DNA from: Flammeovirgaceae bacterium
Lineage (GTDB): Bacteria > Bacteroidota > Bacteroidia > Cytophagales > Cyclobacteriaceae
NCBI GenBank assembly: GCA_027487845.1
Contig: JAIYCV010000026.1
Span: forward strand, 310,001-374,000
Length of the DNA stretch: 64,000 nucleotides
Reading direction: 5' to 3'
The translations under genes were made by a program, and so were the position numbers. Of this stretch, positions 3,601 through 63,377 are shown one piece after another. Numbering within the stretch: the first letter of the stretch is position 1; every line of letters begins with the position of its first letter. The notes below the pieces were generated by a model. The model ran no database searches. It was not told the DNA's origin and worked only from the letters and a program-made list of their open reading frames with translations.

Positions 3601-5191
3601 TTGGATCGGTCGTGTTCGGCATTCAACTCCTGGTGTTGGTTTGATTTCGCCTCCACCACATCATGATATTTATTCCATCGAAGACTTGGCGCAGCTCATC
3701 TTCGATTTGAAAAATGCTAACGAGGATGCGCGCATCAGCGTAAAGCTTGTATCGGAGGCGGGTGTTGGAACGATTGCATCGGGCGTTGCCAAGGCCCACG
3801 CTGATGTCGTACTAATATCTGGGCATGATGGTGGAACTGGGGCATCTCCAATAAGTTCGATTCGCCATGCAGGACTTCCGTGGGAACTTGGCTTGGCGGA
3901 AACTCACCAAACATTGGTAAGAAATAAATTGCGTGGAAGAATAGTTGTTCAAACCGATGGGCAAATTCGAACCGGTCGCGATTTAGCTATTGCTGCTTTG
4001 CTTGGCGCGGAAGAGTGGGGAGTGGCCACAGCAGCCCTTGTTACTGCAGGTTGCATTATGATGCGCAAGTGCCACTTAAATACATGCCCTGTTGGTGTGG
4101 CTACCCAGAATAAAGAGTTACGCGCCCTATTCACTGGCAAACCAGAATATGTGGTCAACTTATTCCATTTCTTGGCTGAAGAACTACGCGAGATAATGGC
4201 GGAACTTGGTTTCAGAACGGTCAACGAAATGGTTGGACAAATGGATCGTTTGGAAGTGCGTGAACTGGGTGACCACTGGAAATATAAGAATCTCGATTTG
4301 GCAGCTATGCTGTATAAGGAGCCTTTAAGTTTGGATACGGCACTTTACAAACAAGAAGAACAAGACCATGAAATTGACAAGGTATTAGATCTTCAGTTGA
4401 TTAAGCACGCACAGCCTGCGCTTCAACATGCCGAAGCAGTTAAGGGCGAATTTGTCATTAGCAATCAGAACCGGGCCGTTGGTACGATGCTCTCCCATGA
4501 GATTTCCAAAAATTTCCTTGGCCTAGGTCTACCAAAAAACACCATTCATTTCAAATTTAAGGGCAGTGCTGGCCAAAGTTTCGGTGCTTTTGCTGCTCCT
4601 GGCATTTCATTTGAACTGGAAGGCGAAGCGAACGATTACTTTGGCAAGGGGCTTTCGGGGGCGCAACTTATTCTTTATCCCGATAAGGCAATTAAATACA
4701 ATGCTGCTAAAAATATTATTGTAGGTAACGTAGCATTTTATGGCGCCACTTCAGGCGAGGGCTTTATCAGAGGTTTGGCAGGCGAGCGTTTCGCTGTTAG
4801 AAATTCGGGAGTTAAAGTAGTAGTAGAAGGTGTTGGCGATCATGGTTGCGAATACATGACGGGGGGTGTAGTGGTGATTTTGGGTGAAACGGGAAGAAAC
4901 TTTGCCGCGGGAATGAGTGGTGGAGTGGCTTATGTGTATGACGCCTCAAAATTGTTTGTCCGAAATTGCAATATGGAAATGGTCATGTTAGATACGCTAG
5001 ACGAAGAAGATGAGAAACTTCTGAAGACTATGATCAGCGACCACTACCAATTAACTCAAAGCGAAACGGCAACTGCCTTGCTAAAAAGTTGGCCTCACTC
5101 GTTTAGTCAATTCGTTAAAGTTATGCCGTTGGATTATAAAGCTGTACTGGATAAACGAAAGGCAGCAAATAAAAAAGAAGTAGTACAATAA
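665..5191 (+). CDS. gltB: glutamate synthase large subunit (GTG start)
   Basis: 1508 aa; DSCGVGFIANIKG N-terminal Ntn motif, central and FMN domains (GEGGEDDARF, SGHDGGTGASP), C-terminal GXGXG domain. Confidence 0.97.
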   Translation: MKEEITQGLYRPEFEHDSCGVGFIANIKGNKSHQVIADAITMLERMNHRGACGCEPNTGDGAGILIQVPHEFFTDECRRLGFKLPAYSHYGVGLVFFPRDPKVREECRTVLNRKIKNMKMTLLGYRVLPTGTADIGESALKSEPVMEQVFIKRPDMVTDPEEFERKLFVLRKYATHIITESVKGVDNQFYFSSLSYKTIAYKGMLTSLQLKYYFPDLENEEIVSALAVIHSRFSTNTSPSWRLAQPFRYIAHNGEINTVQGNINWLKSKEAFFSSEYFTTEELNMILPICNPTQSDSSNLDNTIELLVHAGRSLPHVMMMLIPEAWDGNEHMSQEKKDFYEYHANLMEPWDGPASITFTDGKIVGATLDRNGLRPSRFIVTNDDMVVMASEVGVLDIDQSKVITKGRLQPGKMFVVDLEQGRIISDEELKKDICNRQPYGKWIKENKLRLQDLPEPGGSFHKYDPSTLLKRQVSFGYTSEDLRMILSQMCETGKEALGSMGNDTPLAVLSKQAQHLSSYFKQLFAQVTNPPIDSIRERLVMSLALHVGGSLNLLEETPAHCVTLELPVPILSNKDLEKIRYIDHRHLQTKTIYTYFKADGKPDSMEKGLNRICQYVTDAIEDGFTIIILSDRSFDSGHAQIPSLLVTAAVHHDLIRKGLRGKVGLLIEAGDVWETHHYATLIGYGASGVNPYLVFQTIHQMINNNQLKEGLSDEKAIYNYTKAVSGELLKIMSKMGISTLQSYHGAQIFEALGLSKQVVDSYFTGTVSRIGGLSLDDIAEEALIKHRLAFPKTTNATQKLEVGGVYQWKQRGEAHLFNPQTIHLLQHSTKTNDYSVFKKYSKLINEQSERAITLRSLLKFRKGKSISIDEVESKEKIFKRFATGAMSFGSISHEAHSTLAIAMNRIGGKSNCGEGGEDDARFIRKQNGDWENSAIKQVASGRFGVTSYYLSSAKELQIKMAQGAKPGEGGQLPGHKVDDWIGRVRHSTPGVGLISPPPHHDIYSIEDLAQLIFDLKNANEDARISVKLVSEAGVGTIASGVAKAHADVVLISGHDGGTGASPISSIRHAGLPWELGLAETHQTLVRNKLRGRIVVQTDGQIRTGRDLAIAALLGAEEWGVATAALVTAGCIMMRKCHLNTCPVGVATQNKELRALFTGKPEYVVNLFHFLAEELREIMAELGFRTVNEMVGQMDRLEVRELGDHWKYKNLDLAAMLYKEPLSLDTALYKQEEQDHEIDKVLDLQLIKHAQPALQHAEAVKGEFVISNQNRAVGTMLSHEISKNFLGLGLPKNTIHFKFKGSAGQSFGAFAAPGISFELEGEANDYFGKGLSGAQLILYPDKAIKYNAAKNIIVGNVAFYGATSGEGFIRGLAGERFAVRNSGVKVVVEGVGDHGCEYMTGGVVVILGETGRNFAAGMSGGVAYVYDASKLFVRNCNMEMVMLDTLDEEDEKLLKTMISDHYQLTQSETATALLKSWPHSFSQFVKVMPLDYKAVLDKRKAANKKEVVQ

Positions 5192-5229
5192 GATTTTTCA
5201 GAAGTAGAACTAAGCACGAAGAATTTGAT

Positions 5230-6699
5230 ATGGCAAAGCCAACTGGATTTCTAGAATTTGATAGAGAGCTTCCAAAAAAGCGTGACCCAAAGGACCGGAT
5301 CAACGATTACAAAGAAGTTGAAAGTGGTCATGATTTGAAGACCACTCATACGCAAGCTGCTCGTTGTATGGATTGTGGCATTCCTTTTTGTCATCACGGC
5401 TGTCCATTGGGTAACATCATCCCCGAGTTTAACGATGCCGTGTACCAACATAACTGGAAGTTGGCCTATGAGATTCTAATATCCACAAACAACTTCCCAG
5501 AATTTACAGGACGGATTTGCCCCGCTCCGTGTGAAGCATCCTGTGTGCTTGGCATCAATAAGCCAGCCGTGGCTATTGAGTATATAGAGAAATCAATTAT
5601 AGAAACTGCGTTCAGCAATGGCTACGTAAAACCTCGCGTTCCTACTACGAGAACGGGTAAGAATATTGCTATTGTGGGCTCTGGCCCGTCAGGCTTGGCT
5701 GCTGCTGCTCAGCTTAATTTTGCCGGCCATTCGGTAACTGTCTTTGAAAGATCAGATGAAATAGGTGGTTTGCTCCGCTATGGAATTCCTGATTTTAAAC
5801 TAGATAAGGACATAGTAAAACGGAGGATTGCGCTGATGGAAGAAGAAGGCGTTGTTTTTCAAACCAATGCCAACGTTGGGGTTAACATTCCCGTGTCGCA
5901 ATTGCGAGAAGAATACGATGTAATCTTGCTTTGTGGTGGTTCAACTGTTCCTCGTGATCTTCCTATACCAGGAAGAAATTTAAAAGGTGTTCATTTTGCA
6001 ATGGATTTTCTGTCGCAACAAAATGCCAGGGTTGGCGGAAAAGCGATTACCAAAGAAGAAATTTTTGCAACTGATAAAAATGTGCTGGTGATTGGTGGTG
6101 GCGATACCGGGTCTGATTGCGTGGGCACATCTAATCGCCACAAAGCGAAATCGGTAAGCCAGATTGAGATTATGCCGAAGCCTCCAAAAGATAGAACCGA
6201 GACGATGCCATGGCCTAATTGGCCGATGATTTTACGCACCTCCACCTCGCACGAAGAAGGATGTGAAAGAAGTTGGGCGGTGGTTACGAAAGAATTTATT
6301 GGCGACTCCAACGGAAATCTTACGGGTATAAAATTAGTAGAGGTAGAGTGGAAAAAAGCAGAGCCTGGTAAGCCACCCTTCGTTGAAATTGCTGGGTCCG
6401 AAAAAATAATTCCTTGTGAATTGGCTTTGCTTGCCATGGGCTTTCTCCATCCACAACACCAAGGACTGTTAGAACAATTGGGTGTTGAAAGAGATGAGCG
6501 AGGAAATGTAAATGCACATAAATATCAAACATCGGTAGAAGGCGTTTTTACCGCAGGTGATATGCGCAGAGGACAATCGCTGGTGGTATGGGCAATAAGT
6601 GAAGGCCGCGAGGCCGCAAAAGCGATTGATGAATATTTGTGTGGTGGGGTTTCTTACTTAGAGTCTAAGGATTTGAGTATGCTGGCTACGATCTCGTAA
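5230..6699 (+). CDS. gltD: glutamate synthase small subunit
   Basis: 489 aa; Cys-rich CMDCGIPFCHHGCPLGN, GSGPSGLAAAAQL, GGGDTGSDC; directly downstream of gltB. Confidence 0.97.
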   Translation: MAKPTGFLEFDRELPKKRDPKDRINDYKEVESGHDLKTTHTQAARCMDCGIPFCHHGCPLGNIIPEFNDAVYQHNWKLAYEILISTNNFPEFTGRICPAPCEASCVLGINKPAVAIEYIEKSIIETAFSNGYVKPRVPTTRTGKNIAIVGSGPSGLAAAAQLNFAGHSVTVFERSDEIGGLLRYGIPDFKLDKDIVKRRIALMEEEGVVFQTNANVGVNIPVSQLREEYDVILLCGGSTVPRDLPIPGRNLKGVHFAMDFLSQQNARVGGKAITKEEIFATDKNVLVIGGGDTGSDCVGTSNRHKAKSVSQIEIMPKPPKDRTETMPWPNWPMILRTSTSHEEGCERSWAVVTKEFIGDSNGNLTGIKLVEVEWKKAEPGKPPFVEIAGSEKIIPCELALLAMGFLHPQHQGLLEQLGVERDERGNVNAHKYQTSVEGVFTAGDMRRGQSLVVWAISEGREAAKAIDEYLCGGVSYLESKDLSMLATIS

Positions 6700-6718
6700 A
6701 AGGTTTGAATTAACTCGA

Positions 6719-7114
6719 TCAATTTTTTATTCTGATTAACTTTTCTGAATCAATCGGAGATTCAAAGTAAAAGATAACGAAATTCTTTTGAAGTTCTTTT
6801 ACATGGATAGACAAAAGAGGCGTTGAATCATGGAACAGTTCATTTTCATAAGCTTTTCGTTTTGTCAAGGTGACTATTTTTTTTGATGAGTCGTAAGACC
6901 AAATACCATCCTCAGTAATTGGCAGTTGTGGATCTGATCCATAACAAACATTAAGAATTCTGTAGGTTTTGTTATTGCCAAACTCAAACCGATAAGGGCA
7001 TTCAACGTACTTACTGCCCTTAACCTCGCTTTCCAACCAATTTCCATAAAGCTCTTGGTCAGTCGGTTTAACTTGAAGTCCCAAACAAGAGAAAAGACAC
7101 AAAAAGATAGCCAT
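6719..7114 (-). CDS. hypothetical lipoprotein-like protein
   Basis: 131 aa with N-terminal hydrophobic stretch and Cys (LFSC); 5 nt downstream of the amidohydrolase gene on the same strand. Confidence 0.5.
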   Translation of the reverse strand: MAIFLCLFSCLGLQVKPTDQELYGNWLESEVKGSKYVECPYRFEFGNNKTYRILNVCYGSDPQLPITEDGIWSYDSSKKIVTLTKRKAYENELFHDSTPLLSIHVKELQKNFVIFYFESPIDSEKLIRIKN

Positions 7115-14663: not shown

Positions 14664-15461
14664 ATGAGTACAAAGCGTATTGCCATCATCGGGGGCGGAA
14701 ATCTAGGAGCTGCTATTGCCGAGGGTTTGATAAAAAGTAAATTCTCGTTTCCCGAACAGATTACGATCACGAAACGCAATACCGAAACTCTTAAACACCT
14801 GGCCGACCAAGGCTGTATTGTAACAAGTGACAATAAGCAAGCCATTGAAACCAGTGAAGTGATAATAGTTGCTCTGAAGCCATACAATGTAAAAGAAGTA
14901 CTTGAAACGTTGAAAGCTTCCTTCGACCCAAAACTTCACATGGTTATAAGTGTGGTGACGGGTATTTTCTTGAAGGATCTTTCTGCCATTATCGACAATG
15001 GTGTGCCCATTTTCCGAGCGATGCCTAACACGGCCATTGCTATTCAAGAATCGGTAACCTGTTTGTGCCAAAGCGGTGCTACCACTTCCCAAACAAAATA
15101 TGTGACCGATCTTTTCAGTCAGCTCGGCATTGCTGTGCCAATAGACGAAAAATTGATGGACGCTGCCACGGTGCTTGGTGCATGTGGAATTGCCTATGCC
15201 TTACGTTTTATACGCGCTGCAACACAAGGCGGAATTGAAATTGGTTTTGATTCTAAGACAGCTAGCTTAATTGCCGCCCAGACCGTGAAGGGCGCTGCGG
15301 AACTTTTGTTGAAAGGTGGCCTCCACCCCGAAGCAGAAATCGACAAGGTAACAACGCCCAAAGGGTGCACCATTGCCGGCCTTAATGAAATGGAGCATCG
15401 CGGGTTTAGTTCATCGCTGATTAAAGGGATTGGCGCTTCGTATAACAAGATTTTGGGTTAA
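14664..15461 (+). CDS. proC: pyrroline-5-carboxylate reductase
   Basis: 265 aa; IIGGGNLGAAIAEGL, RAMPNTAIAI, C-terminal TTPKGCTIAGLNEMEHRGFSSSLIKGI. Confidence 0.93.
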   Translation: MSTKRIAIIGGGNLGAAIAEGLIKSKFSFPEQITITKRNTETLKHLADQGCIVTSDNKQAIETSEVIIVALKPYNVKEVLETLKASFDPKLHMVISVVTGIFLKDLSAIIDNGVPIFRAMPNTAIAIQESVTCLCQSGATTSQTKYVTDLFSQLGIAVPIDEKLMDAATVLGACGIAYALRFIRAATQGGIEIGFDSKTASLIAAQTVKGAAELLLKGGLHPEAEIDKVTTPKGCTIAGLNEMEHRGFSSSLIKGIGASYNKILG

Positions 15462-15517
15462 AGCGTATATTAATTGTTAATTTGAATTAACTTTAATTAA
15501 AATAAATTTATAATAGT

Positions 15518-16951
15518 ATGCGATTGATATTGGTCTTAATCATAGTTTTTGGTTCTCTGTTTACTGTTTGTAGTGGCCATTGCCAGACCATTAATTTTGA
15601 TGGAAAGAATGATGAGCAAGGAAAAATTTTCAAGCCCTACGTAACTATCAAAAATATAATTAACCTAAAAGAAAACGGCTTCCTTGCTATTACCGGTGTT
15701 TATCTAAATGGGACTGTTATGGGTAAGCTACCCGATGATATAATTTGGTATTTTAGTAAAGAAGGCAAATTGGTATGGAAAAACTCTGTTGATCAAGACA
15801 ATCATCTTCTGGTTAGTCCTGATAATTCAACACTCTACTTTGTTAAGATAAATGAAAAATTTTATAGTAAGAAAACAAAGATTAGAAAAATAGACGTAAG
15901 TAGTAATAAAGAAACGGCCTTTGAAATTGAAGGTAAACAAGAATTTGGCAAGAGTTTACAAAACATACTGTGTGACAACAATTATTTGTATTTAGTGGCC
16001 ACTCAGGAGGGCGATGAACTGCACGATAGAAAAAAAGTAAATGAGAAATTGTTATTAAATCGTTTTGATGCCCAAACATTCTCTTACACAAGATTTGTAA
16101 TAGATACTCCGCCAATTGAAGAGGGCGAAGAGAATAGCTTTTGGTCGTTTATTGGACAAAAAGAAGACGTTAAATTTTTCTGTTCTAAACAAGCTTCAAC
16201 AGATCTTAATACTTTTAACTTTAACATTATTGGCATTTTATCTAGCGGAGCAATAACCAGTAAGGTAAGTTTTTCGAGCAAGTTGTTGAACAATAAATTC
16301 AGGAGACCTGCAATTAATTATGCCAATCAATCGAACGATGTTTATAATTTTAAAACCATTGATTATGGCGAAAAGTTCATTAGAGACACTGGAGGTGGAA
16401 TGGTAAGCACTTACACTAAAATCATATTGTTCAAAACAGCCTTTAGCCAAATTACCTACGATAATGTTACCAATAGCTTTTTGGTTTATGGCCTTTTTGG
16501 AGACAATCCCTTTGAAAAAATAGGTCGTATCGGATACAGCGGCCTTTACCTTGGCTCCTTCGATATGAATGGGCAAAAAATTTGGTATATTAATCACCCT
16601 ACCAGCACGTTAGTTGATAACGCAAATTTGCGTGTTGATGATCGTTACATTCGCTTGTTTAAAACATATGACGCAAAAATCGGGCTTAACGTCTCTTTCA
16701 AAAAGACAGACGCGTCCTTCTTATTTTCAACTGAGGGCAAATTTATAGACAGTCAATTATTGAAAGACGCTGAAATCGATTTAGAGAATTTTGGTAGAAA
16801 AAAGGACATAAAATTAGCCAATTATTTAAAGCCTTTTGCTAAAGATAAAAATGGCATCATCAAGTCAATTGTTACGCCCGATGGCGAAATTGTTATTCGT
16901 TTTTCAAATAAAGAAAAAGTATTCCAAACGATTTACTCCCAGAGAAGTTAA
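15518..16951 (+). CDS. hypothetical secreted protein
   Basis: 477 aa, signal peptide (MRLILVLIIVFGSLFTVCSGHCQ); no family recognised. Confidence 0.6.
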   Translation: MRLILVLIIVFGSLFTVCSGHCQTINFDGKNDEQGKIFKPYVTIKNIINLKENGFLAITGVYLNGTVMGKLPDDIIWYFSKEGKLVWKNSVDQDNHLLVSPDNSTLYFVKINEKFYSKKTKIRKIDVSSNKETAFEIEGKQEFGKSLQNILCDNNYLYLVATQEGDELHDRKKVNEKLLLNRFDAQTFSYTRFVIDTPPIEEGEENSFWSFIGQKEDVKFFCSKQASTDLNTFNFNIIGILSSGAITSKVSFSSKLLNNKFRRPAINYANQSNDVYNFKTIDYGEKFIRDTGGGMVSTYTKIILFKTAFSQITYDNVTNSFLVYGLFGDNPFEKIGRIGYSGLYLGSFDMNGQKIWYINHPTSTLVDNANLRVDDRYIRLFKTYDAKIGLNVSFKKTDASFLFSTEGKFIDSQLLKDAEIDLENFGRKKDIKLANYLKPFAKDKNGIIKSIVTPDGEIVIRFSNKEKVFQTIYSQRS

Positions 16952-16960
16952 TTTAAAATT

Positions 16961-17105
16961 GTGGCCTTCGCCCCCAAAGCAGAAATCGACCAAGTAACAA
17001 CGCCCCAGGGTTGCACCATTGCAGGCCGCAATGAAAGGGGAACATCGCGGGTTTAGTTCTTCGCTGATTAAAGGGATTGGCGTTTCGTATAACAGGATTT
17101 TGGGG
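16961..17105 (+). pseudogene. degenerate duplicate of proC 3' end
   Basis: About 144 nt closely matching proC 15316-15458 (GCAGAAATCGACCAAGTAACAACGCCC..., ATCGCGGGTTTAGTTCTTCGCTGATTAAAGGGATTGGCGTTTCGTATAAC); 1-nt insertion (AATGAAAGGGGAACATCGCGGG vs AATGAAATGGAGCATCGCGGG) breaks the frame. Confidence 0.92.
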
Positions 17106-17138
17106 GAAAAGGATTTTTGCTCAAATGTGTCAATTAAA

Positions 17139-17333
17139 ATGGGGTCAATTTTTGAACTAATTTTTACTGGAGTTGGTGGATTTATTTGTTGGGTGCTCAA
17201 TGGTTCTAAGGGAAGTATCAAACTAGAATTAAGCAAACCATATGATAGAGACTTTCGATATTACCGTAATTATTTCGTTGGCATTTCATTTTTGTTGTTT
17301 GTGATCTTCGTTTTTTATGGGATCTTTAAGTAG
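17139..17333 (+). CDS. small hypothetical membrane protein
   Basis: MGSIFELIFTGVGGFICWVLNGSKGSIKL...YFVGISFLLFVIFVFYGIFK; two hydrophobic segments; in frame with the proC remnant upstream. Confidence 0.5.
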   Translation: MGSIFELIFTGVGGFICWVLNGSKGSIKLELSKPYDRDFRYYRNYFVGISFLLFVIFVFYGIFK

Positions 17334-17419: not shown

Positions 17420-17479
17420 TCACCCGATCCTTTTAACATCCACTTTTACCGAAATACTTTGCCCGCTTGAGCTAGAGTT
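17420..17479 (-). pseudogene. remnant of the 3' end of a transglutaminase-family gene
   Basis: Minus-strand reading NSSSSGQSISVKVDVKRIG* matches IFSSGGQSISVKVDVNRME* at 61750-61809; 48 of 60 nt identical by hand alignment. Confidence 0.8.
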
Positions 17480-17571
17480 GAGCAAATTTTGTCAGCCTAT
17501 TCTAGAAATTGTAGCACTGCTATATGTAGAATTTAAAAAAAACACTATTTTTCTTAAAACTTATTAGCCCA

Positions 17572-19503
17572 ATGAAAACAAATATTCTCCTCTTGCTTTT
17601 GACTAGTTGCATTTTCAGCTATGCCCAAAAAGCACCAATTAAATTTGGAGACATCCCAATGGAGGACATGAAGATGAAAATCTACCCGTTGGATTCTTCG
17701 GCAGAAGCGGTGGTGTTGGTTGATTATGGAAAAGCCTATATTAACGCAAGAGGAGAAGGTTATGTACTAACTTATGAAAGACACAAGCGGATAAAAATAT
17801 TAAAGAAAGGTGGCTTGTCTTGGGCGGATTTTTCAATCAGTCTTTTTCAGTCTGGTTCTACTGAAGAAACGGTTTCAAAGGTGAAAGCTGTCACCTATAA
17901 TCTGGAAAATGGGGCCATTTCGGAAACTCCAATTGGCAAAGAGAGTATTTTCAAAGAAAAATTTAACCGCAACACCAATAAAGTCAAATTTACTTTACCC
18001 AATGTTAGAGAAGGTTCAGTTCTTGAGGTCAGCTACACCATAAATTCCGAATTTTTTACAAGCTTTCCCAATTGGAAATTTCAAAGCACAATACCAACGC
18101 GCCTAAGTGAGTATTGGGCTATTATGCCGGAAGATCTGCGTTATGAGAGATACATGCAAGGTTATGTTGCCACCAACTATGAAGTAGACAATCAGATGAC
18201 AGCAGGCATTAACACGTTTGCACATCATTGGATCTCCAAAGACGTGCCTGCATTTAAACCTGAACCTTATATGACTAGCGAAGACGATTATGTATCAAAA
18301 ATAAATTTTGCGCTGGCGGGGTATAAAGTGGGCGGAATTGAAAAGGACTATATGGGTTCTTGGGAAAAATTAAGCACCAACTTAATGGCAAGTGAAAATT
18401 TTGGTAAGGTTATCGATAAGTCAAATTTTTTAAAAACCAAAGTTGAAGAATTAACCGCTGGGCTAACCGAGCCAATTCAGAAAATTAAAATAATTCATTC
18501 TTACGTACGAGATAACGTAGAATGGGATGGAGATAAGGATTTTACAGCCGGTGATCTGAAAAAAATTCTTGAAAAAAAGAAAGGAACCTCTGGAGACATA
18601 AATTTGCTGCTCGCGTCCATGCTCGATAAGGCTGGGCTAACTGTTGATATGCTGTTAATTAGCACAAGAGACCATGGATTTGTTAGAAAGCAATATCCAA
18701 TGGAACGGCAATTTAACTATGCTTTATGTATCGTAAGACTTACTGATAAAAATGTTCTATTAGACGCCACCGAAAAGAATTTACCATACACAGTGCTGCC
18801 TGAACGGTGCTTAAATGGCGAAGGGCTTGTGATTTCAAAATTGAGTAAAGGCTGGATGGAGGTAACCAGCAAAGCAAAATCAAAAACGATTATAAGCGGA
18901 GATTTTGCCTTGGACGAAAACGCAGAGTTAAAAGGCAAATTGACCTATACACTTGATGGATATGATGCTTTTGATATGCGCGAGATCTATAAAACTAAAG
19001 GTGAAGAAACATATGTAAAAGATTTTCTCGCATCGAAAAGCTGGAATGTCGAAAAGACTGCATTTTCTGATTTAAAAGAATTGGAAAAACCCGTGAAAGA
19101 GATTCACGAGTTAAGTATCGCGGATCATGCCGCGACTGCTGGCAATACCATATATCTAAATCCCTTAGTAACTTCTCAAATTGCCGAAAACCCCTTCAAA
19201 TATGATACGCGAATTTACCCAGTAGATTTTGGAAGCGCGATGGAAAAAATGTATTTGTGCAAAATTGTTATCCCTGCCGGGTATGTAGTCGATGAGTTAC
19301 CACAACCAAAAGTAATCGCCCTTCCAGGCAATGCCGGGCGCTATTCCTATAGCTTAACCCAACAAGGAAACATAATAAACGTAGTAAGTAACTTTCAAAT
19401 AAATAAAAGCTTGTTTGCACAAAATGAATATCCCTACCTAAAAGAAATGTATAATCAGGTTATTGCCAAGCAATCCGAACAAATTGTATTAAAGAAAAAA
19501 TAA
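17572..19503 (+). CDS. DUF3857 / transglutaminase-like domain secreted protein
   Basis: 643 aa; signal peptide, TYERHKRIKILKKGG, VRDNVEWDGD, GTSGDINLLLASMLDKAGL. Confidence 0.85.
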   Translation: MKTNILLLLLTSCIFSYAQKAPIKFGDIPMEDMKMKIYPLDSSAEAVVLVDYGKAYINARGEGYVLTYERHKRIKILKKGGLSWADFSISLFQSGSTEETVSKVKAVTYNLENGAISETPIGKESIFKEKFNRNTNKVKFTLPNVREGSVLEVSYTINSEFFTSFPNWKFQSTIPTRLSEYWAIMPEDLRYERYMQGYVATNYEVDNQMTAGINTFAHHWISKDVPAFKPEPYMTSEDDYVSKINFALAGYKVGGIEKDYMGSWEKLSTNLMASENFGKVIDKSNFLKTKVEELTAGLTEPIQKIKIIHSYVRDNVEWDGDKDFTAGDLKKILEKKKGTSGDINLLLASMLDKAGLTVDMLLISTRDHGFVRKQYPMERQFNYALCIVRLTDKNVLLDATEKNLPYTVLPERCLNGEGLVISKLSKGWMEVTSKAKSKTIISGDFALDENAELKGKLTYTLDGYDAFDMREIYKTKGEETYVKDFLASKSWNVEKTAFSDLKELEKPVKEIHELSIADHAATAGNTIYLNPLVTSQIAENPFKYDTRIYPVDFGSAMEKMYLCKIVIPAGYVVDELPQPKVIALPGNAGRYSYSLTQQGNIINVVSNFQINKSLFAQNEYPYLKEMYNQVIAKQSEQIVLKKK

Positions 19504-35453: not shown

Positions 35454-36968
35454 TTAAAACCTAATTGCATAAATATACTCTCTTGGATAGTCTTCATAAA
35501 TACCTGAAAAGGTCACTAAGTCACCCGTCTTCTTTTTCTTCAATAGCTCATTGAGTTCTTTGGCAGATTTCACTTCTGCATCATTTACGTGAGTGATGAT
35601 AAAACCTTGTCTCATTTCTGTGTAGCGAGCAATTTTACCATTTTCTAACGACTTTACTTTTACGCCAGTATTAAGTTCTAGTTTTTTTAGTGTTTTGGCA
35701 TCCAAATCCTCCAATTCCATACCTAACGAAGCGACAGCGTCCTTCTCCTCACGCTTAATAGTACCCAATTTGCCATCCTTATTTTTAAGAGTAACCGGTA
35801 AAGTCAGCAGTTTACCTTTTCTGTTGACTACTACGTTTACTTTATCACCTGGTCTTTTACGCCCAATGTACTCAATAAGGGCTGAACTTGATTTAATGTC
35901 AGTTTCATCAAGTTTAACAACTACATCTCCCTTTTCAATGCCTGCGGCTTTGGCGGCACTTTTATCGGCCGCATCGCCAAAGCCATTAACAAAAGCCCCA
36001 TCATTTACCCCTAAATCTTCTCTTTTGGAGACTTCACTCGTTACGTTTTCTATCTGAATGCCCAACCAGCCTCTTTGAACAGTTCCAAAAGCAATTAAAT
36101 CTTCCACTACTTTACTTACTATGTTCGAAGGCACTGCAAATCCATAACCACTATAGGAGCCTGTTGGGCTTGCTATGGCTGTATTTATACCCAGTAGTTC
36201 ACCATTTAAGTTGACAAGCGCGCCCCCGCTATTCCCAGGATTAATTGCGGCATCGGTTTGGATGAACGACTCGATTGCGGTGTTGGGCTGATTTTCTTGT
36301 TGCCCTTGGCTATTGAACAAATTTGGCCTGTTTGAATTTATTATGTTAATGTTTCGTCCTTTCGCGCTGATAATTCCTGCGGTGACAGTGCTATTCAAGT
36401 TGAAGGGATTGCCTACTGCCAACACCCATTCGCCAACCTTTGAATTATCGGAATTAACAAATGAAAGGTAAGGCAATTCTTTCTCATGAATTTTAATCAA
36501 CGCAATATCCGTGTCGGGATCAGTTCCAATAACCTCTGCTTTGAAGGTACGATTATCAGACAAAGTTACTTCTACTATGTCGGCACCTTGCACAACATGA
36601 TTGTTGGTTGCAATGTATCCATCTGCATTAATAATTACACCTGAACCGCTGCTTTGGCTGGGTTGTTTTTGAATTTGATTATTAGGTCCAAAGAAAAACT
36701 GGAACGGATCATTTGGATTGCCTTTAGCTACCGTAGTTTCACTAGACGACTTTATATGAACTACTGCTTTTGTTACCTTTTCGGCAGTTGCAGTAAAATC
36801 AAGACCTACGGGTTGCCCCGCTGAATTTAGCGCTACCGTGCTGGTGGGAACGTTGGAAACGTGCTCAATTTTTACTCCATTATTATCGTTCCCTAACCAG
36901 TTATAAGCGGCAATGGTGCAGGTGCTACCAAGAACCGCAGCTAATAAAAGTTGACCAAACTGTTTCAT
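35454..36968 (-). CDS. Do/DegQ-family serine endopeptidase with PDZ domains
   Basis: 504 aa; NNHVVQGAD, DTDIALIKI, DAAINPGNSGGALVNLNGELLGINTAI, two PDZ-like regions. Confidence 0.95.
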   Translation of the reverse strand: MKQFGQLLLAAVLGSTCTIAAYNWLGNDNNGVKIEHVSNVPTSTVALNSAGQPVGLDFTATAEKVTKAVVHIKSSSETTVAKGNPNDPFQFFFGPNNQIQKQPSQSSGSGVIINADGYIATNNHVVQGADIVEVTLSDNRTFKAEVIGTDPDTDIALIKIHEKELPYLSFVNSDNSKVGEWVLAVGNPFNLNSTVTAGIISAKGRNINIINSNRPNLFNSQGQQENQPNTAIESFIQTDAAINPGNSGGALVNLNGELLGINTAIASPTGSYSGYGFAVPSNIVSKVVEDLIAFGTVQRGWLGIQIENVTSEVSKREDLGVNDGAFVNGFGDAADKSAAKAAGIEKGDVVVKLDETDIKSSSALIEYIGRKRPGDKVNVVVNRKGKLLTLPVTLKNKDGKLGTIKREEKDAVASLGMELEDLDAKTLKKLELNTGVKVKSLENGKIARYTEMRQGFIITHVNDAEVKSAKELNELLKKKKTGDLVTFSGIYEDYPREYIYAIRF

Positions 36969-58364: not shown

Positions 58365-60929
58365 ATGAGCAATAGATTTCTGCAGACACAAATTAACAAC
58401 CTAGCTTCAGGTTACTTCTCTGATTGGGGTGCATTAGATGAATGCTTTCAAAATAATGCAGGCGCAAAAGAATCATGGAAGCAATTGCTTACCAACATCG
58501 ATACGTTAGGTGTGGAAGAACTCAAAACACGCCAACAAGAGCTACTGAAATTATTGCAAGAGAATGGTGTTACTTATAACGTGTATGGCGATACAAACGG
58601 GTTAAACAGACCTTGGTTATTGGATACAATACCGTTGGTGATTTCTGCTGTCGACTGGCGCATAATAGAACGTGGCATGAAGCAACGCGCATTTGTGCTT
58701 AATAAGATTCTTGACGATTTGTATGGCGAACGCACCTTGTTAAAGAATGGAATTATCCCACCAGAACTCATCTATTCACATCCAGGTTTTCTTCGTCCAT
58801 GCGATAAAATAAAACTATCAGGCCAACACCAACTACCACTCTATTCGGCCGACCTTTCAAGAGGACCCGATGATAAAGTGTGGGTAATTAAAGATCGCGC
58901 ACAAGCCCCTTCGGGCATGGGCTACGCATTGGAAAATAGAAGTGCATTGAGCCGCATGGTGCCCGAATTATTTCAACATCATCATGTGCCCAAGTTGGGA
59001 GGTTTCTTCAACAACATGATGCAAGCGTTGATTCAAATAGCACCTCAAGGAAAAGAAAATCCACGCATCGTTTTATTAACACCGGGTCCACGAAACGAAA
59101 CGTACTTTGAACATGCATATCTCGCATCGTATTTGGGAATTACGCTCGTGCAAGGCGAAGACCTGATTATGCGCGATAGTTTTGTTTGGATAAAAACAGT
59201 TGACGGATTAGAGAAAGTTGATATTATTTTACGCAGAGTTGATGATACCTTCTGCGACCCCTTGGAGCTCCGTGAAGATTCGCAGCTTGGCATACCTGGT
59301 TTGTTGCAAGCTGTCCGCAAAGGCAATGTGGCAGTGGCCAATCCGCTTGGAAGTAGTATACTTGAAAACACAGGGTTGATGGCGTTTATGCATGGTGCCT
59401 TCAAGCATTTTCTCAACGAAGATCCCATCATTCCGATGATTGCCACCTGGTGGTGTGGGCAAAAAAAGGAAATGGACCATGTGATCGATCATATTGACTC
59501 GCTCGTAATCAAAAGCACACAACGGTTAAGTGGTTTTAAAACAGTTATGGGAAGTCACCTTTCTAAAGTTGAGAAAGAAGAACTCATCAGAAAAATAAAA
59601 TTTGAGCCGTTTAAATATGTGGGGCAGGAAGAAGTGCAGTTTTCAACCTCACCTGTGTTCACAAAAGGTAAACTTGAACCACGCTTTACCGTCCTTCGGT
59701 CTTATCTAGTCGCTGGCAAAGATGAGGGTTATGAAATGATGCGCGGTGGCCTTACACGTTGTTCACCGGAGAAGGGAAGTTTCCTTGTCTCCAATCAGGA
59801 TGGTGGTATTTCAAAAGACACCTGGGTTGAAGCTACCTACAAAGACAACGCGCTTTCGGGGAAACAATCTACGCCAGATATGAAACGCAAGGCCGTGTTG
59901 CCCAGTCGTGCCGCGGAAAATTTATTTTGGGTAGGACGGTATACACAACGAGTAATTCGTACGTCTCGTTTCATTCGCATTGTATTGCGAAACTTAACTC
60001 AAACAGGGTTTTCGAATAATGAAAACGATTCGCAATCGCTCCGTGTGTTATTACAAACCGTTACGCACGTAACCGATACATATCCCGGGTTTGTTGATGA
60101 TGCTGATGACGAACTAAAAAATCCTTTACAGGAAATGCACCAACTGATTTGTAATCCCAATCGCATCGGCAGTATTCTTTTTACCTTGAACAACTTGCTG
60201 AAAGCAATGTATGCGGCACGCGATCGATGGACCGTTGATAGCTGGCGGATCATCGATGAAATAGAAAATATAAAGAGAAGGATAGCAGCGGTTGAACCGG
60301 ATGGCATCCGTCATGTGTTTTCGTTGCTTGACCAATTAACGGCTGGTTTGCTTTCGTTCGCAGAGATGACGCGCACAAGCATGTACCGTAGTGATGGCCG
60401 AACGATGTATCGCTCTGGTCAATTGATTGAAGAAATGCTGATGGAGTTAGCGCAGTTTAAATCTATGCTGACCACACAGCACGAGGAGAGTGTTGAGTTT
60501 CAATTATTAGAATCTGTTTTGTTAAGCAACCAAAATCTTTCCTCTTACCGATCGGTGTATCGCACCACATTAAATGTGGTGCCAGCCATCGACTTACTAT
60601 TTTTAAACAGTCAGAACCCGACCTCCATTTTTTCGCAATTAGAAGGCCTTTTAAAATATACCAGAAACTTGGCACAAAAGGAAGGAAACACAAACGACAA
60701 TGAAATTTCGCGATTGGTGTTTGAATGTTACAGTCAAGTGCGTTTAATGAACATTGATACGTTGGTTAAGGCAGATGAAGAAAGTGGTTTGCGGGAAGAA
60801 CTCTATAAATTTTGCGATCAACTACTGCTGCAAATTTCTGCGATATCAGCGAAGCTAAGCTCTACCTACTTTAGCCACACCACGTACAGTCACCAAAGCG
60901 ATAGAGAAGGTTTTCAATTTGAAGTGTAG
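58365..60929 (+). CDS. circularly permuted ATP-grasp + alpha-E (DUF403) domain protein
   Basis: 854 aa; VYGDTNGLNRPWLLDTIP, VWVIKDRAQAPSGMGYALENR, C-terminal LPSRAAENLFWVGRYTQRVIRTSR (alpha-E). Confidence 0.9.
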   Translation: MSNRFLQTQINNLASGYFSDWGALDECFQNNAGAKESWKQLLTNIDTLGVEELKTRQQELLKLLQENGVTYNVYGDTNGLNRPWLLDTIPLVISAVDWRIIERGMKQRAFVLNKILDDLYGERTLLKNGIIPPELIYSHPGFLRPCDKIKLSGQHQLPLYSADLSRGPDDKVWVIKDRAQAPSGMGYALENRSALSRMVPELFQHHHVPKLGGFFNNMMQALIQIAPQGKENPRIVLLTPGPRNETYFEHAYLASYLGITLVQGEDLIMRDSFVWIKTVDGLEKVDIILRRVDDTFCDPLELREDSQLGIPGLLQAVRKGNVAVANPLGSSILENTGLMAFMHGAFKHFLNEDPIIPMIATWWCGQKKEMDHVIDHIDSLVIKSTQRLSGFKTVMGSHLSKVEKEELIRKIKFEPFKYVGQEEVQFSTSPVFTKGKLEPRFTVLRSYLVAGKDEGYEMMRGGLTRCSPEKGSFLVSNQDGGISKDTWVEATYKDNALSGKQSTPDMKRKAVLPSRAAENLFWVGRYTQRVIRTSRFIRIVLRNLTQTGFSNNENDSQSLRVLLQTVTHVTDTYPGFVDDADDELKNPLQEMHQLICNPNRIGSILFTLNNLLKAMYAARDRWTVDSWRIIDEIENIKRRIAAVEPDGIRHVFSLLDQLTAGLLSFAEMTRTSMYRSDGRTMYRSGQLIEEMLMELAQFKSMLTTQHEESVEFQLLESVLLSNQNLSSYRSVYRTTLNVVPAIDLLFLNSQNPTSIFSQLEGLLKYTRNLAQKEGNTNDNEISRLVFECYSQVRLMNIDTLVKADEESGLREELYKFCDQLLLQISAISAKLSSTYFSHTTYSHQSDREGFQFEV

Positions 60930-60930
60930 T

Positions 60931-61809
60931 ATGCGATATAAAATAAAACATATAACCGAATATCGCTACCAAGAAATGGTAAGCACAGGCCACAATCGCT
61001 TGTGTTTAGTGCCACTTACGTGGGATCAGCAGAAATGTATTTCATACAATGTTAAGATTTCGCCAACACCCGATGAGCAAGTCTATCGAACCGATTTTTT
61101 TGGTAACACTGTACTTTTCATTTCTAACTATAAAGAACATTCACAACTTGAGATAGTATCAGAAAGTTTAGTTGATATTCAGAATCGCAGCAATGCCGAT
61201 CGTGCATTTAGTTCAACCATTTTATGGAAAGACGTAAAAAACCTTTTAACGCAACAACCCGATGTATATGCCGATGTAGCACAATACACGTTGCCTTCGC
61301 TTCACGTTCCCTATAGTGAAGTGATAAAGAATTTTGCGCAAGACTGTTTTGCCGATAATGTTACGCTTTGGAATGGTTGCCAATTGTTGATGCAAAAAAT
61401 TTATAGCGCCATCGAGTTTAAGCCAGGGTTCACAACAGTGAATACACCTGTTGAATCGGTTGTGAAATTGCGCAAAGGCGTTTGCCAGGATTTTGCTCAC
61501 TTAATGATAGCAAGCTTACGCAACCTTGGTTTGCCAGCGCGGTACGTAAGCGGTTATATAGAAACCCTTCCGCCACCAGGCAAAGAAAAACTTGTAGGCT
61601 CCGATGCCTCTCATGCTTGGGTGGCAGTTTACTTTCCTGAGATTGGCTGGGTAGAATTTGATCCAACCAATAATTTACTTCCTTCTTATAAACACATAAC
61701 CGTTGCCTTTGGCCGCGACTACTTTGATGTTGCTCCTGTGAAGGGAATCATCTTCAGCTCAGGCGGGCAGAGTATTTCGGTGAAGGTGGATGTGAATAGA
61801 ATGGAGTGA
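60931..61809 (+). CDS. transglutaminase family protein
   Basis: VVKLRKGVCQDFAHLMIASLRNLGLPARYVSGYIETL, DASHAWVAVYFPEIGWVEFDPTNN; start trimmed from 60919. Confidence 0.92.
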   Translation: MRYKIKHITEYRYQEMVSTGHNRLCLVPLTWDQQKCISYNVKISPTPDEQVYRTDFFGNTVLFISNYKEHSQLEIVSESLVDIQNRSNADRAFSSTILWKDVKNLLTQQPDVYADVAQYTLPSLHVPYSEVIKNFAQDCFADNVTLWNGCQLLMQKIYSAIEFKPGFTTVNTPVESVVKLRKGVCQDFAHLMIASLRNLGLPARYVSGYIETLPPPGKEKLVGSDASHAWVAVYFPEIGWVEFDPTNNLLPSYKHITVAFGRDYFDVAPVKGIIFSSGGQSISVKVDVNRME

Positions 61810-61976
61810 CGTGGAGGTCAGTAAAGACGTACCTGACCTTCTTACGTTGTTAAACATTGGGAGGTTACGAACACAACGTTTTTCAAAAAAGCCCTGCCGT
61901 TTTAAATTTTTCAAAAAACGCTCGTAAAAGACAAACCCAAAATGAACATCTCAAATACATACCTTTGCAATTAACT

Positions 61977-63377
61977 ATGGCCAAATCTAAAACTATATTT
62001 TTTTGTCAATCGTGTGGATATGAATCAGCGAAGTGGTTAGGCAAATGCCCGTCCTGTAATGCCTGGAATACTTTCGTGGAAGAAACTGTTGTAAAAGATG
62101 AGGCTAACAAAAATGAATGGCGGCAGGAATCTACCAAAAACCGCCAGCCTAAACCCAAAACGTTTTCTCAAATTGAGTCTACCAATGAGTTCCGAATTAT
62201 AACCACAGATCAAGAACTCAATCGCGTGTTAGGTGGCGGCATCGTACCCGGGTCGTTGATATTGATTGGAGGCGAACCCGGTATTGGCAAGTCAACATTA
62301 ATGCTACAAATTGGGTTGGCACTTACTAATTATAAAGTGCTTTATGTTTCGGGCGAAGAAAGCGAACAACAATTGAAAATGCGCGCGGAACGACTTACAC
62401 AGGTTCACCCTAGTGAGGGGCAAGGGGTGAGGTCAGAAACTTTTTATACACTTACCGAAACGAACACAAAAAACATTTTTGCCTCCATTGAAACACTCGA
62501 ACCCGATTTAGTGGTAGTAGATTCCATACAAACACTTCATTCACATTTAATTGAATCGGCAGCAGGAAGTGTTTCACAAGTGCGCCAATGTGCGGCTGAG
62601 TTAATGAAATACGCCAAGGAAACTGACACACCTGTTTTTTTAGTGGGCCATATTACAAAAGATGGTATGCTGGCTGGACCAAAGGTACTTGAGCATATGG
62701 TTGATACTGTTTTACAATTTGAAGGCGACCGCCATTTAACCTATCGGATTTTAAGAACCACTAAAAATCGGTTTGGGTCTACATCAGAAATTGGTATTTA
62801 CGAAATGCTAGGTTCTGGCTTGCGCGAAGTTTCCAATCCATCAGAAATATTAATTTCACAAAAAGAAGACAACATTAGCGGCATTACCATTGGCGCCACG
62901 CTAGAAGGGAATAGGCCTTTGTTGATTGAGATACAATCGCTCGTGAGTCCTGCATCATATGGAACGCCCCAACGCACGCCTACTGGTTTCGATCAGAAAC
63001 GGCTGAATATGCTACTGGCTGTTTTAGAAAAACGGTGTGGCTTCCGCATGGGTGCGCAAGATGTATTCTTGAATATGGCGGGCGGAATTACCGTAGAGGA
63101 TCCTGCAATCGACTTAGCGATTTGTATTTCTATTATTTCTTCCATGGAAGAAGTTCCCATCTCTGATAAAATTTGTTTTGCCGCAGAGATTGGTTTGGGT
63201 GGCGAACTGCGAGCCGTTAATCGAATTGAGCAACGCATTTCGGAAGCCGAAAAACTGGGCTTTGAAGAAATCTATATCTCGAAGTTTAGTCATAAGGCAC
63301 TTGATTTAGCTAAAACAAAAATCGAAGTGAGGTCGTTTGGCAAGTTGAGCGAAGTGTTTCAAGCACTGTTTAAATAA
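61977..63377 (+). CDS. radA: DNA repair protein RadA
   Basis: MAKSKTIFFCQSCGYESAKWLGKCPSCNAWNTF zinc finger, GGEPGIGKSTLMLQ Walker A, Lon-like C-terminus; start trimmed from 61857. Confidence 0.96.
   Translation: MAKSKTIFFCQSCGYESAKWLGKCPSCNAWNTFVEETVVKDEANKNEWRQESTKNRQPKPKTFSQIESTNEFRIITTDQELNRVLGGGIVPGSLILIGGEPGIGKSTLMLQIGLALTNYKVLYVSGEESEQQLKMRAERLTQVHPSEGQGVRSETFYTLTETNTKNIFASIETLEPDLVVVDSIQTLHSHLIESAAGSVSQVRQCAAELMKYAKETDTPVFLVGHITKDGMLAGPKVLEHMVDTVLQFEGDRHLTYRILRTTKNRFGSTSEIGIYEMLGSGLREVSNPSEILISQKEDNISGITIGATLEGNRPLLIEIQSLVSPASYGTPQRTPTGFDQKRLNMLLAVLEKRCGFRMGAQDVFLNMAGGITVEDPAIDLAICISIISSMEEVPISDKICFAAEIGLGGELRAVNRIEQRISEAEKLGFEEIYISKFSHKALDLAKTKIEVRSFGKLSEVFQALFK

Follow-up and report, generated by a model that had tools for sequence, protein, structure and literature searches.

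DNA duplication associated with inversion (DDAI) was reportedly the subject of work by Furuta et al. (2011, PNAS). Bacterial cases of DDAI are described in PMC8963470, and the inversion mechanism of Furuta et al. is cited in PMC3120642. As described in papers that cite that work, DDAI places one breakpoint segment at both ends of an inversion, in inverted orientation, and can create or destroy gene copies. Inverted duplicates at both inversion ends are also accounted for by filled-in staggered nicks or by repair that involves copying, as in the models from Drosophila described in PMC7584159. The locus described here, with a scar and a breakpoint duplicate, is most simply read as an event of the known DDAI kind. 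It shares the inverted placement of the duplicated segment and differs from DDAI in that the duplicate is only 60 nt, is a decayed gene tail and supplies no working extra gene, and in that the junction also carries other insertions. It differs from the staggered-break inversions of Drosophila in that it lies on a bacterial chromosome and in that its breakpoint ends are of an age that precludes base-level resolution.

The window, the 64,000-nt stretch of DNA that was analyzed, carries an intact transglutaminase gene (TG) and, on the other strand at a distance of 44 kb, a 60-nt sequence resembling its 3′ end. The window was compared with related genomes, the nearest of which was G004 (protein identity of 96% for proC and 88% for TG). 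The features needed for this comparison are the following:
14664–15461, plus strand: intact proC (P5CR_dimer), left flank of the inversion
17420–17479, minus strand: remnant of the TG 3′ end (last 19 codons plus stop), at the former TG site beside proC
17480–17571, plus strand: probable left inversion junction and retained upstream region of DUF3857a; alignment with the G004 DUF3857a/radA spacer starts at 17515
17480–61809, strand not assigned: segment of about 44.3 kb inverted relative to G004 and the genus, as seen from reciprocal adjacencies in contigs C510, C114, and C601 and from the DUF3857-radA divergence
60919–61809, plus strand: intact TG (Bact_transglu_N and Transglut_core; Pfam PF08379 and PF01841), right end of the inverted segment
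61810–61941, strand not assigned: probable right inversion junction, from the TG stop to the radA upstream region; on the radA side, sequence similar to G004 begins at 61942
61980–63377, plus strand: radA, right flank of the inversion; 92% amino acid identity to radA of G004

Read on the reverse strand, positions 17479 to 17420 encode NSSSSGQSISVKVDVKRIG followed by a stop codon, while the tail of the intact TG (61750–61809) encodes IFSSGGQSISVKVDVNRME followed by a stop codon. The two were found to be identical at 48 of 60 nt in an ungapped alignment with the stop codons in register. When the remnant was searched against its own genome, a match of 62 nt at 81% was obtained (E = 1.9e-9); the best 60-nt match of the TG gene to 300 Markov-shuffled gaps was 36/60, and no other site in the 64-kb window resembled the 60-mer at more than 30/60. 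The likeness has one edge at the stop codon and the other about 2 nt past the 60-mer. Thus, the match of about 80% ending at the stop, as claimed from the letters alone in an earlier sequence-only reading, is real. We also considered whether the remnant could be a fortuitous match or a short repeat that is widespread, as a sequence of only 60 nt with a second partial copy in the genome might be taken to be. This explanation was rejected, and we give it a vanishingly small probability: in addition to the E-value and the shuffles, the remnant matched only three places in its own genome and had no strong copies in the 59 related genomes searched, and the gene order of G004 independently predicts its position and orientation.

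In G004, contig C510 carries proC (plus strand, 5056–5850) convergent with TG (minus strand, 5861–6736; coordinates without stop codons), with the two stops 4 bp apart (TAA GGCT TTA) and TG in the same place and orientation as the remnant in the window; this junction is shown by one relative only, G004. The left flank of C510, from the TPR gene to proC, is collinear with the window, and past TG the alphaE, DUF2126 transglutaminase, and uvrA genes and a 124-amino-acid gene are all inverted relative to the window. Contig C601 carries SDR, DUF3857b, and DUF3857a divergent from radA and then an ACC-deaminase-like gene, which corresponds to the right flank of the window, and contig C114 carries the genes found at 27 to 48.5 kb of the window in an order that fits an inverted interior; these comparisons come from a fragmented, 77%-complete assembly in which C510, C114, and C601 remain separate contigs. 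The match and the G004 synteny agree in identifying the sequence as an antisense remnant of the TG 3′ end 44 kb from the intact gene, which bears out the earlier reading. That reading had also reported two 3′ fragments of different genes, opposite in orientation, within 520 bp, and this is explained by proC and TG having formerly been convergent neighbors. Its hint that a paralog once occupied the site calls for revision: the TG gene found there in G004 is the ortholog (88% at the amino acid level). A second full TG of which a deletion spared only the last 60 nt, with an unrelated rearrangement alongside, would suit the core codons of the remnant, which differ from those of TG in frame and largely synonymously. 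We consider this very improbable, as the sole relative with TG beside proC has a single close ortholog there, and both the relocation of TG and the reciprocal adjacencies demand a rearrangement with a breakpoint at exactly the site of the remnant.

Both ancestral adjacencies are thus observed in G004. In the window the partners are exchanged: proC stands beside DUF3857a and TG beside radA, at the two ends of a 44-kb interior that is inverted. A single inversion is recognized by just this pattern, in which two adjacencies are replaced by two others and the interior between them is turned round, and the remnant is very probably the breakpoint scar of one such lineage-specific event of about 44 kb. 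The starting order would have been proC> <TG <alphaE <TG-DUF2126 <uvrA ... SDR <DUF3857b <DUF3857a radA>. One break between proC and TG and another in the spacer that separates DUF3857a from radA, with the intervening piece rejoined in reverse, would have carried TG away from proC by inversion of the 44 kb between; a single event is the simplest account and presumably lies behind the whole rearrangement. The surroundings of radA were also read in 29 relatives. DUF3857 was directly divergent from radA in 15 of these, G004 included, and in the 14 congeners besides G004 the divergent gene was DUF3857a/b; elsewhere DUF3857 was about 1 kb away (one relative) or upstream on the same strand (four), or SDR was found there (nine). 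TG was upstream of radA in the manner of the window in none of the 29. Given the divergence of DUF3857a and radA across the genus, the gene order of the window is the derived state. A TG block was found beside radA twice, in the window and in G030, in different arrangements; in the latter (L257, contig C813, 1456–3707) TG runs convergently toward the 3′ end of radA, and this arrangement is independent. A search of the contig collection with the DUF3857a protein gave no match, and the TG protein found relatives at ≤73% identity only, so no sister genome in that collection dates the event.

TG is whole in the window, yet its last 60 nt also lie beside proC, and a clean cut would have cost TG its last 20 codons. 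If the break between proC and TG was staggered, or if the repair involved copying, the last 60 nt of TG would have been doubled, with one copy kept beside proC as the remnant and the other kept on TG with the reading frame intact; we infer that the duplicate was made in one of these two ways. At the G004 proC-TG junction, the 60-nt TG 3′ end is present in one copy. No TG-like sequence was detected in the DUF3857a/radA spacers of six genomes (G004, G008, G009, G032, G068, and G035), and therefore the additional copy most likely arose together with the inversion. The remnant is closer to TG of the window (48/60) than to TG of G004 (45/60), the two TG genes being identical at 51/60, and it shares with TG of the window the TGA stop and codons such as TCA, AGT, and TCG. 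This pattern, within the weak resolution of 60 nt, would fit a remnant that split off in the window lineage after divergence from G004. Because 20% of sites differ between the remnant and TG, the exact breakpoints, any microhomology, and the mode of repair are unreadable.

A further partial copy of the remnant was found in the same genome (G000) on contig C46, at 35545–35674 (91%). It is part of a longer shared tract:
17442–17728, plus strand: tract most likely copied to the DUF3857 paralogue on C46, with part of the remnant, the promoter region, and the first ~157 nt of DUF3857a
The paralogue (L002; L009, 7539–9545) matches the window over its upstream 130 bp, including ~38 nt of the TG remnant, and over its first ~157 coding nt. 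Identity was 84 to 100% per 25 nt inside the tract and fell abruptly to about 40 to 70% after ~17728. There is no reason for TG sequence to occur anywhere but at the window site; copying is therefore read as running from the window to C46, and ~290 bp were most likely transferred after the inversion, by gene conversion or recombination. The paralogue may thereby have gained a new promoter and signal peptide. This copy bears on a different order of events, in which a small duplication had already placed a copy of the TG 3′ end upstream of DUF3857a when the inversion took place, and the inversion was itself a homologous recombination between the inverted copies. Such recombination would leave inverted copies at both junctions, as are found, and a similar remnant does stand upstream of the C46 paralogue. 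We find this order unlikely all the same, as it needs an additional event and is at odds with the six spacers free of TG-like sequence, G004 among them; moreover, the copy on C46 looks derived, being shorter and having the DUF3857a promoter with it. A length of 60 bp is also short for efficient homologous recombination.

In addition to the TG remnant, the left junction of the inversion carries the following:
15518–16951, plus strand: orphan gene of 477 amino acids, between proC and the duplicated proC 3′ end
about 16961–17109, plus strand: decayed second copy of the proC 3′ end, with a frameshift and without its stop codon; direct repeat
17139–17333, plus strand: small membrane-type open reading frame (ORF) of 64 amino acids, between the proC and TG remnants
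The proC 3′ fragment described in the earlier reading is genuine, with 88% identity over about 142 nt to proC 15316–15457 (the direct repeats D1 and D2 of the duplicate were 92% and 85% identical to 15326–15462). Because it is in direct orientation, it is not a product of the inversion. The orphan had no Pfam match and no homolog in 39 related genomes, and the 64-amino-acid ORF had only weak relatives, at 33% and 35%, in two congeners. This ORF lies within the spacing of about 290 to 310 bp between the proC and TG remnants. Across 17019–17333 the decayed proC 3′ frame was observed to run stop-free into the ORF, a possible chimeric reading frame. The layout of proC, orphan, and proC tail is what a single-crossover integration would produce if the incoming DNA carried a proC 3′ segment, and we infer that two separate insertions took place at the same junction, one giving the proC 3′ duplicate that encloses the orphan and one giving the ~290-bp insert that contains the ORF. 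Two other origins were rejected. If both remnants came from the same breakpoint duplication, proC sequence would be expected after TG at the right junction, where there is none; and while the proC 3′ repeat flanks the orphan, as for an integrative element with a 3′-end attachment site, neither the orphan nor the ORF has a Pfam recombinase match. We consider it unlikely that a single episode of template-switching repair produced the entire left junction, from proC to DUF3857a, and took up two foreign genes in the process, with the tightly convergent proC/TG stops (4 bp apart) acting as a site where breakage and capture recur.

At the right junction, 61810–61941 comprises 132 bp of unexplained origin with a strong hairpin-like sequence, and no second copy of it was found in its own genome. 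Beyond the copies described above, neither junction had a repeat or a second genomic copy, and the junction ORFs had no Pfam match. An old element, since decayed, may have been present at the junctions.

A 60-nt gene tail by itself reveals which gene was once adjacent, which way it pointed, and where the distant break of a 44-kb inversion lay, and all three are borne out by G004. Short 3′ remnants that end at stop codons may thus serve as markers of old inversions in single genomes. The locus adds a case from a genus of apparent Cyclobacteriaceae/Cytophagales type to the known inversions of this kind, with probable follow-on copying of the new promoter junction to a paralogue.
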